Source: Dactylosporangium sp.
GTDB lineage: Bacteria; Actinomycetota; Actinomycetes; Mycobacteriales; Micromonosporaceae
NCBI GenBank assembly: GCA_013041765.1
Contig: JABDRL010000411.1
Coordinates: 1-32,295, forward strand
Direction: 5' to 3'
DNA length: 32,295 nt
Below are positions 9,211 through 14,734 of the stretch, in pieces (within the stretch, counting starts at the first letter, position 1; each line of letters opens with the position of its first letter). Below the pieces are notes generated by a model. The model searched no databases and was not told the DNA's origin. It was given only the letters and a program-made list of their open reading frames with translations. Position numbers and translations under genes: made by a program.

Positions 9211-9239
9211 TTGACCTGCGTCCTCACGGTCGGTACTCT
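9211..9239 (+). promoter_or_regulatory. Predicted promoter of the str operon
   Basis: TTGACC (9211-9216) and TACTCT (9234-9239) are separated by exactly 17 bases. Five of six -35 positions match TTGACA. Transcription would begin near 9246, leaving a long leader before the rpsL start at 9504. Confidence 0.65.
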
Positions 9240-9356
9240 TTTCCCCCGTGCCCGGCTTCGCTGGGCAGATCGTGCATGCGCCCACCTTGGCCAAGGCCGG
9301 GAGCGCGGTGCGACCGGCATCCCCGGCAGAACCAACGGCCTGGGACCGTGCGCCGG

Positions 9357-9382
9357 GCGACACGCCCGACCGCGGGGGTCGG
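9357..9382 (+). repeat. Leader hairpin element, copy 1 (rpsL leader)
   Basis: This 26-base element is identical to 14308-14333. It begins GCGACACGCCC and ends GGGGGTCGG. CCGACC (9366-9371) pairs with GGTCGG (9377-9382) around a 5-base loop. In this copy CGGGCG (9354-9359) can alternatively pair with CGCCCG (9363-9368) around a 3-base loop, which would compete with the first stem. The element lies about 120 bases before the rpsL start and inside the predicted transcript. Confidence 0.65.
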
Positions 9383-9503: not shown

Positions 9504-9878
9504 GTGCCTACGATCCAGCAGCTGGTCCGCAAGGGCCGGCAGGCAAAGACAGCGAAGAGCAAGACCCCGGCCCTCAAGGGCAGCCCTCAGCGGCGTGGCG
9601 TGTGTACCCGCGTGTACACCACGACACCGAAGAAGCCGAACTCGGCGCTGCGTAAGGTAGCCCGTGTCCGGCTCAGCCACGGGGTCGAGGTAACGGCGTA
9701 CATTCCCGGCGTCGGGCACAACCTTCAGGAGCACTCGATCGTGCTCGTGCGTGGCGGCCGGGTGAAGGACCTCCCGGGCGTTCGTTACAAGATCATCCGC
9801 GGTTCGCTCGACACCCAGGGCGTCCGCAACCGTAAGCAGGCGCGCAGCCGTTACGGTGCGAAGAAGGAGAAGAGCTGA
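9504..9878 (+). CDS. rpsL: 30S ribosomal protein S12
   Basis: A 124-residue decoding-centre protein of the small subunit. The GTG at 9504 gives [12 protein letters not shown], the canonical N-terminus; AAGGGAGAGG just upstream serves as ribosome binding site. The [13 protein letters not shown] loop carries K43, and K88 lies in RVKDLPG, so both main streptomycin-resistance positions are wild type. D89, the residue that is methylthiolated by RimO in bacteria that have that enzyme, is present. It is the first gene of the str operon, and rpsG begins two bases after its last base. Identification is certain. Confidence 0.98.
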
Positions 9879-14069: not shown

Positions 14070-14092
14070 GGGCACCCGATTTGGGAATGCCC
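14070..14092 (+). terminator. Possible tuf terminator overlapping the rpsJ promoter
   Basis: GGGCA (14070-14074) pairs with TGCCC (14088-14092), and CCC (14075-14077) with GGG (14083-14085), around the loop GATTT and leaving an AA bulge. There is no U-tract. The right arm contains the predicted -35 of the S10 operon promoter, so terminator and promoter would share bases. The stem is short and the call is weak. Confidence 0.3.
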
Positions 14093-14145
14093 GTTCCATA
14101 CGGCATACTGTACAAGTTGCGTCGCGGGGCGGTCGGGACTACTTA
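14081..14145 (+). promoter_or_regulatory. Predicted S10 operon promoter(s)
   Basis: TTGGGA (14081-14086) and CATACT (14104-14109) are 17 bases apart; the overlapping TACTGT (14106-14111) is another possible -10. A second pair, TTGCGT (14117-14122) and TACTTA (14140-14145), also has a 17-base spacer but a poorer -10. This is the most AT-rich part of the leader, which supports a promoter here. Confidence 0.5.
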
Positions 14146-14307: not shown

Positions 14308-14333
14308 GCGACACGCCCGACCGCGGGGGTCGG
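14308..14333 (+). repeat. Leader hairpin element, copy 2 (rpsJ leader)
   Basis: This element is identical over 26 bases to 9357-9382 in the rpsL leader. CCGACC (14317-14322) pairs with GGTCGG (14328-14333) around a 5-base loop. It is about 92 bases upstream of the rpsJ start. Both copies are followed within a few bases by a CGAAA run. The identity lies in non-coding sequence, while the flanks are dissimilar, which suggests selection on the element itself. Confidence 0.65.
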
Positions 14334-14425: not shown

Positions 14426-14734
14426 ATGGCGGGACAGAAGATCCGCATCCGGCTCAAGGCCTACGACCACGAGGTCGTCGACTCGTCTGCTCGCAAGATC
14501 GTCGAGACGGTGACTCGGACTGGGGCGCAGGTCGCGGGCCCGGTGCCGCTGCCCACTGAGATCAACCGCTATTGCGTGATCAGGTCTCCGCACAAGTACA
14601 AGGACTCGCGCGAGCACTTCGAGATGCGCACCCACAAGCGTCTGATCGACATCATCGATCCGACGCCCAAGACGGTCGATTCGCTCATGCGGCTCGACCT
14701 TCCCGCTGGCGTCGACATCGAGATCAAGCTGTAG
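14426..14734 (+). CDS. rpsJ: 30S ribosomal protein S10
   Basis: A 102-residue protein of the 30S head that also takes part in transcription antitermination as NusE with NusB. The ATG at 14426 gives [19 protein letters not shown], the conserved beginning; AGAAGGAAC lies upstream. The extended loop with [20 protein letters not shown] and the end DIEIKL are typical, and the length is standard. It is the first gene of the S10 operon, behind a long leader. The frame is open further upstream but is not protein-like there. Confidence 0.98.

Follow-up and report, generated by a model that had tools for sequence, protein, structure and literature searches.

The leaders of the rpsL (str) and rpsJ (S10) operons carry a short near-invariant element that is almost confined to these two positions, and something therefore probably reads it and tunes both operons. 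As judged from the alignment of its natural versions, the conserved unit is a linear core of about 19 bases, GACACRCCCGR-NNN-CGKGG. Based on sequence comparison, we see about an even chance that this core is the cis-acting site of one trans-acting factor that controls the str and S10 operons together, plausibly by ribosomal protein feedback.

An exact repeat in the rpsL and rpsJ leaders

The analysis started from a stretch of 32,295 nt from Dactylosporangium sp., here called the window, for which a preliminary description had reported an unchanged 26-base repeat. The sequence GCGACACGCCCGACCGCGGGGGTCGG is indeed present twice without any difference, at 9357–9382 and 14308–14333. The GTG start codon of rpsL (9504) begins 121 nt after the end of the first copy, and the ATG of rpsJ (14426) begins 92 nt after the end of the second, which agrees with the leader positions originally given (about 120 and 92 bases before the first starts). 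At 26 nt, this is the longest exact direct repeat of the window (the runner-up has 17 nt), and it is far above chance: repeats did not exceed 20 nt in 90 Markov simulations (order 1, 3, and 5). When up to three mismatches are allowed, the 26-mer has two copies and no more in the whole genome (an assembly of 5.19 Mb, 94% complete), and a reversed-pattern control has none. The rpsJ protein encoded in the window is identical to that of Longispora and Dactylosporangium. The coordinates of the features are listed in Table 1.

Table 1. Features of the rpsL and rpsJ leaders in the window
Feature	Position	Strand	Remark
Predicted rpsL promoter TTGACC-17-TACTCT	9211..9239	+	Promoter type common to rpsL leaders
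5′-terminal hairpin of the rpsL leader (CGTGCCCGGCTTCGCTGGGCA)	9247..9267	+	YGUGCC stem-loop immediately downstream of the predicted start
Core GACACRCCCGR-NNN-CGKGG, rpsL (str operon) leader	9359..9377	+	Invariant columns from 52 natural versions; found class-wide at this site of rpsL leaders
rpsL (S12), first gene of the str operon	9504..9878	+	
Predicted rpsJ promoter block CGATTTGG...GGCATACTGTACAAGTTGC	14078..14119	+	Block conserved in 43/58 rpsJ leaders
Core GACACRCCCGR-NNN-CGKGG, rpsJ (S10 operon) leader	14310..14328	+	Invariant columns from 52 natural versions
rpsJ (S10), first gene of the S10 operon	14426..14734	+	

The sequences that flank the two copies are unrelated and the core is conserved throughout the class (see below), which upholds the earlier view that a recent duplication is unlikely. 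We give next to no credence to chance or recent duplication as the origin of the repeat: the nearness of the two copies is all that points that way, the class-wide conservation refutes it, and the length of the repeat lies beyond the Markov simulations.

Distribution of the core in Actinomycetota

Among 198 genomes drawn from the phylum, the motif (at most three mismatches) was found in each of the 17 genomes that belong to the class of the window (its own genome included) and in one of the 181 genomes from outside the class, where it is not located before rpsL or rpsJ. In a class-wide draw, 102 of 148 genomes have the strict pattern and none has the reversed pattern. For 15 class genomes without the strict pattern in which rpsL or rpsJ could be located, the leaders were read directly. 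In 14 of these, rpsL, rpsJ, or both are preceded by a core that matches at 15–16 of the 16 informative positions; the remaining one (G288) has a partial match alone. Most of these genomes had escaped the strict pattern because of changes at its right end. A class genome usually has one or two copies in sense orientation, and rpsL or rpsJ is located downstream on the same strand at all checked loci except for three weak matches with three mismatches. The same picture of core placement is obtained from 80 rpsJ loci, most of them named, which span Longispora, Dactylosporangium, Micromonospora, Actinoplanes, Streptomyces, Nocardiopsis, Actinomadura, Frankia, Nocardioides, Glycomyces, and others.

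A relaxed version of the core has 32 matches in 20 whole genomes, about four of which are away from the rpsL and rpsJ leaders (G271:C33:507917-507935, G271:C33:551460-551478, G271:C1:271795-271813, and G223:C5:53238-53256), a count that is consistent with chance in GC-rich genomes. The preliminary description had named absence from close relatives and many unrelated genomic copies as findings that would speak against the element. Neither was observed, given that the core precedes rpsL and/or rpsJ in nearly all class genomes and that copies elsewhere are few. Its suggestion that the element is under selection is supported by this class-wide conservation, and the proposed link between the str and S10 operons by the presence of the core in both leaders of relatives. 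Outside the class, at least seven genomes from other families have the variant AACGCCCGRNNCCGTGG before rpsL, and the element is thus probably older than the class.

Relation to operon layout

The placement of the core correlates with the distance between tuf and rpsJ. Where this gap is shorter than 200 nt, the gap never contains the core (0 of 16), and the core is present in all 14 rpsL leaders that were readable; at this spacing, str and S10 probably form one transcription unit. Where the gap is at least 400 nt, a separate core precedes rpsJ in every case (30 of 30). For gaps of 200–400 nt, the core precedes rpsJ in 15 cases and is lacking there in seven, all of which have a core before rpsL. 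Three loci from Nocardioides and Aeromicrobium have kept the rpsJ core and have no rpsL core, and genomes G277, G296, and G008 resemble them, with the core at rpsJ and not at rpsL. Nearly all of these cases fit a simple rule, by which each S10 operon is preceded by one core, either directly or via read-through from str, with str being the more dispensable core site of the two. The occurrence of the core before nearly every S10 operon favors, without proving, a regulator tied to the S10-spc region.

The conserved unit compared with the proposed hairpin

The 52 distinct natural versions of the element form a gap-free alignment. Columns A2, C3, A4, C7, C8, C9, G10, C15, G16, and G18 are invariant; column 6 is A or G, column 17 is G or T, columns 12–14 are free, and columns 19–24 drift. 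The element had originally been described as a hairpin with the stem CCGACC/GGTCGG, which both copies should be able to form. Such pairing is possible in the window, where the copy folds at −10.6 kcal/mol, but the stem is not what has been conserved. Among the 52 versions, a compensatory change was found in none of the six pairs, the A-U pair is broken in 27 and the adjoining C-G pair in 19, and the number of paired cells is below that of all 500 shuffles. Many lineages that retain the left part and the CGKGG block have lost the right half of the stem. This also applies to mycobacterial rpsL leaders, which have lost the right end; mycobacterial rpsJ leaders are closer to the consensus. We thus abandon the hairpin as the defining feature. 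The preliminary description itself took conservation without covariation as the mark of a DNA site or a single-stranded binding site, and by this standard the alignment points to a linear site. We consider it quite improbable that the core belongs to a classical structured ribosomal protein leader in which the CCGACC/GGTCGG hairpin is the bound structure. The hairpin does fold on its own in common versions, and between 42 and 50 of the 52 versions retain its outer pairs, but the broken inner pairs, the lack of compensatory changes, the pairing below that of shuffled versions, and the loss of the stem in mycobacterial rpsL leaders and in several other lineages argue against it.

Other structures were considered and rejected. 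An alternative stem of four pairs, CCCG/CGKG, is rarely predicted to form thermodynamically; its covariation is uninformative because it uses invariant bases, and breakage of this stem or of CCGACC/GGTCGG is not offset by the other (p = 0.52). A pseudoknot of CACRC with the GCGKG loop would leave no nucleotides for the connecting loops, and its R and K positions change independently of each other. No covarying structure around the core was found across clades. Known ribosomal protein leaders usually have a covarying structure that is tied to a terminator or to the ribosome-binding site, and the lack of such a structure at the core therefore counts against a ribosomal protein feedback reading.

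At the level of a single clade, Streptomyces (L068–L112) has a long stem up to about 60 nt upstream of the core in rpsJ and rpsL leaders. Several of its pairs have changes on both sides, and in both leaders the stem ends at the base before GACAC. These stems were shown by a looser RNAalifold run and were not recovered in a MAFFT alignment of the rpsJ leaders; we treat them as a clade-level lead.

Predicted promoters and position of the core within the leaders

A predicted promoter of the type TTGACC-17-TACTCT or TACGCT is common to rpsL leaders (52 of 55), at a distance to the core of 85–278 nt and mostly 112–171 nt upstream of it. In the window, transcription of rpsL is predicted to start at about 9246–9248, corresponding to a leader of about 255 nt. 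The rpsJ leaders share a block CGATTKGG...GGCANACTGTNCAGGTTGC (43 of 58), the −10 part of which starts 140–265 nt upstream of the core, and the rpsJ leader of the window has about 310 nt when counted from the predicted promoter. The predicted rpsJ promoters are about 125–250 nt upstream of the core. A promoter score of at least 8 was reached by 67 of 113 leaders (rpsL and rpsJ pooled) versus 4 of 113 shuffled ones. The −10 hexamers match the Escherichia coli consensus at only about three of six positions and score below the threshold of a simple scan, which is why these promoters are absent from its output. With conserved predicted promoters well upstream, the core would be located inside 5′ leaders of roughly 200–400 nt; for the same reason, we rejected the core as a transcription start site.

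This position also bears on the question of whether the core is a double-stranded DNA site for a transcription regulator or a roadblock protein. Conservation without covariation is as expected for such a site, and CCGACC-N5-GGTCGG is a dyad in many versions. Yet the core lies well downstream of the conserved predicted promoters (mostly more than 100 nt) and has a single orientation throughout, and what stays invariant is the asymmetric left part, with free loss of the right half of the dyad. We consider a DNA site unlikely. It is extremely improbable that the core belongs to a leader peptide encoded by a conserved upstream open reading frame: some variable columns are at third codon positions in one frame or another, but controls 30–45 nt away give the same picture, none of the frames stays open from a start codon with any consistency, and none is tied to the frame of the gene.

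Two further features of these leaders were observed. The YGUGCC stem-loop is present in nearly all rpsL leaders, and its stem letters change with pairing kept in several of them. In the window, the hairpin is followed by a CGUGCGUGYGC-like stretch (9247–9282 in total). This second conserved feature is separate from the core; it occurs class-wide and appears to be retained in the rpsL leaders of Nocardioides and Aeromicrobium, where the core is lost. Streptomyces rpsJ leaders (L068, L079, and L091) have extended runs of almost invariant sequence, such as GCGCCTCCCGCCGGGAGGACCGGAAGCGAGTCCCACAGTACTCGTCG and GGACGTACGGGAATCTT, which are located 60–300 nt upstream of the core and have no match in Rfam.

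Possible modes of action

In the mechanism that we favor, the core of about 19 nt in the nascent leader RNA would be bound by one trans-acting factor, which would set the output of the str and S10 operons together. We infer that a protein recognizes the core as mostly unpaired RNA. With less certainty, this factor may be a ribosomal protein encoded in the S10-spc region, acting as a feedback repressor of its own operon and of str in trans; the feedback would plausibly be centered on S10. The least certain part is the mode of action, which might be an early stop of transcription or destabilization of the leader. We prefer this to coverage of the ribosome-binding site because the distance from the core to the start codon varies between 28 nt and about 200 nt, a range that speaks against simple coverage of that site by a protein.

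Many ribosomal protein leaders work by mimicry of rRNA, and the core was therefore compared with rRNA. Nothing clear was found for either mimicry or complementarity. The best 16S match is GTAACACCCGAAGCCGGTGG (13 of 16 positions; 15 of 300 permutations were as good) and the best 5S match is GAAACGCCCG (identical at 9 of the first 10 bases; 6 of 300 permutations were as good), and both are marginal after several tests. The 16S sequence GTAACACCCGAAGCCGGTGG was seen in L115, and the 5S sequence of L117 has the form GAAACGCCCGG, which is also the start of the sister-lineage variant, for example in G118 (GAAACGCCCGGCCCCGTGG). We regard these resemblances as leads only.

The main rival to ribosomal protein feedback is elongation control. 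The core would then be a site of the ops or nut kind, where RNA polymerase pauses or a Nus/NusG-type factor is loaded, and the resulting complex would escape Rho-dependent termination in the long structured leader and throughout the very long operon. The ops (RfaH) and nut/boxA sites are likewise short and sense-oriented, are located in leaders of long operons, and have no fixed spacing to promoter or gene. The core resembles them in being linear and devoid of covariation, in its variable distance to both promoter and start codon, and in its occurrence in two long ribosomal protein transcription units, with one copy per fused unit. S10 is identical to NusE, which would make the S10 operon a natural target. 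However, the sequence differs: the core consensus, compared by eye, does not match the ops sequence GGCGGTAGCGTG, and the resemblance is limited to GCGTG. No boxA stood out when the leaders were read by eye. In addition, the core is confined to the two ribosomal protein units, although other long operons, which have no core before them, might be expected as targets. We thus hold elongation control to be possible but doubtful.

Comparison with known systems

In E. coli, the S10 leader is under autogenous control by L4 and the str operon by S7. Like such autogenous leaders, the core is a lineage-restricted cis element in the leader of a ribosomal protein operon, and its reader would probably be a translation-related factor. 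It differs in being short, linear, devoid of covariation, and common to two operons, and neither a terminator nor a covered ribosome-binding site was seen at the core. We file it as a leader element of ribosomal protein operons that is unusual in being linear and in being common to two operons.

The preliminary description had considered that this might be an already known actinobacterial leader, for which we found no indication. Rfam 15 has no match in the window at the gathering score, and no match with an E value of up to 1 in four leaders (both leaders of the window, one rpsJ leader from Streptomyces, and one rpsL leader from a mycobacterium). Judged by titles, the core sequence does not appear in the open-access literature in the context of actinobacterial leaders, nor is it described in the accessible parts of open-access papers on r-leaders, rpsL attenuators, and actinobacterial ribosomal protein control. 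The 20 r-leaders of Eckert and Weinberg (2020; PMC7247131) include actinobacterial candidates for L17 and L31 and, in the accessible part of that report, none for rpsL or rpsJ. The rpsL attenuators described for Listeria, Xanthomonas, Pseudomonas, and Rickettsia, and before fusA in streptococci, are intrinsic terminators without a globally common sequence (Genome Biology 2010, PMC2965389). These also are rpsL leaders, from several phyla, but a scan of both window leaders for the U-run type of intrinsic terminator (GC-rich hairpin followed by a U-run) found none.

As far as the accessible text of the study allows the comparison, the closest precedent is a sequence common to the long 5′ UTRs of infA/infC and of rpoA/rpsM in Mycobacterium tuberculosis, for which coordinate regulation was proposed (Arnvig et al., 2011; PMC3207917). 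There too, operons for translation or transcription are paired by a common leader sequence. Other operon pairs are involved, a single species was aligned, and the rpsL-rpsJ pair is not mentioned in that text.

Significance

We tentatively propose, at rather less than even confidence, that an undescribed regulon with one or two sites per genome exists in Actinomycetota, in which a factor reads a linear leader motif and co-regulates str and S10-spc. According to the introduction of a 2021 paper (PMC8470358), the control of ribosomal protein synthesis in actinobacteria is almost unexplored. The combined output of str and S10-spc comprises many ribosomal proteins, EF-G, EF-Tu, and NusE/S10. If the proposal is correct, the core would be part of a main switch for ribosome synthesis in these bacteria, and its mode, whether elongation control or cross-regulation by a ribosomal protein, would be new for the str and S10 operons. 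The actinobacteria affected would include Streptomyces and the tubercle bacillus. As a small near-invariant motif before both central ribosomal protein operons, the core may serve as bait for finding its regulator.
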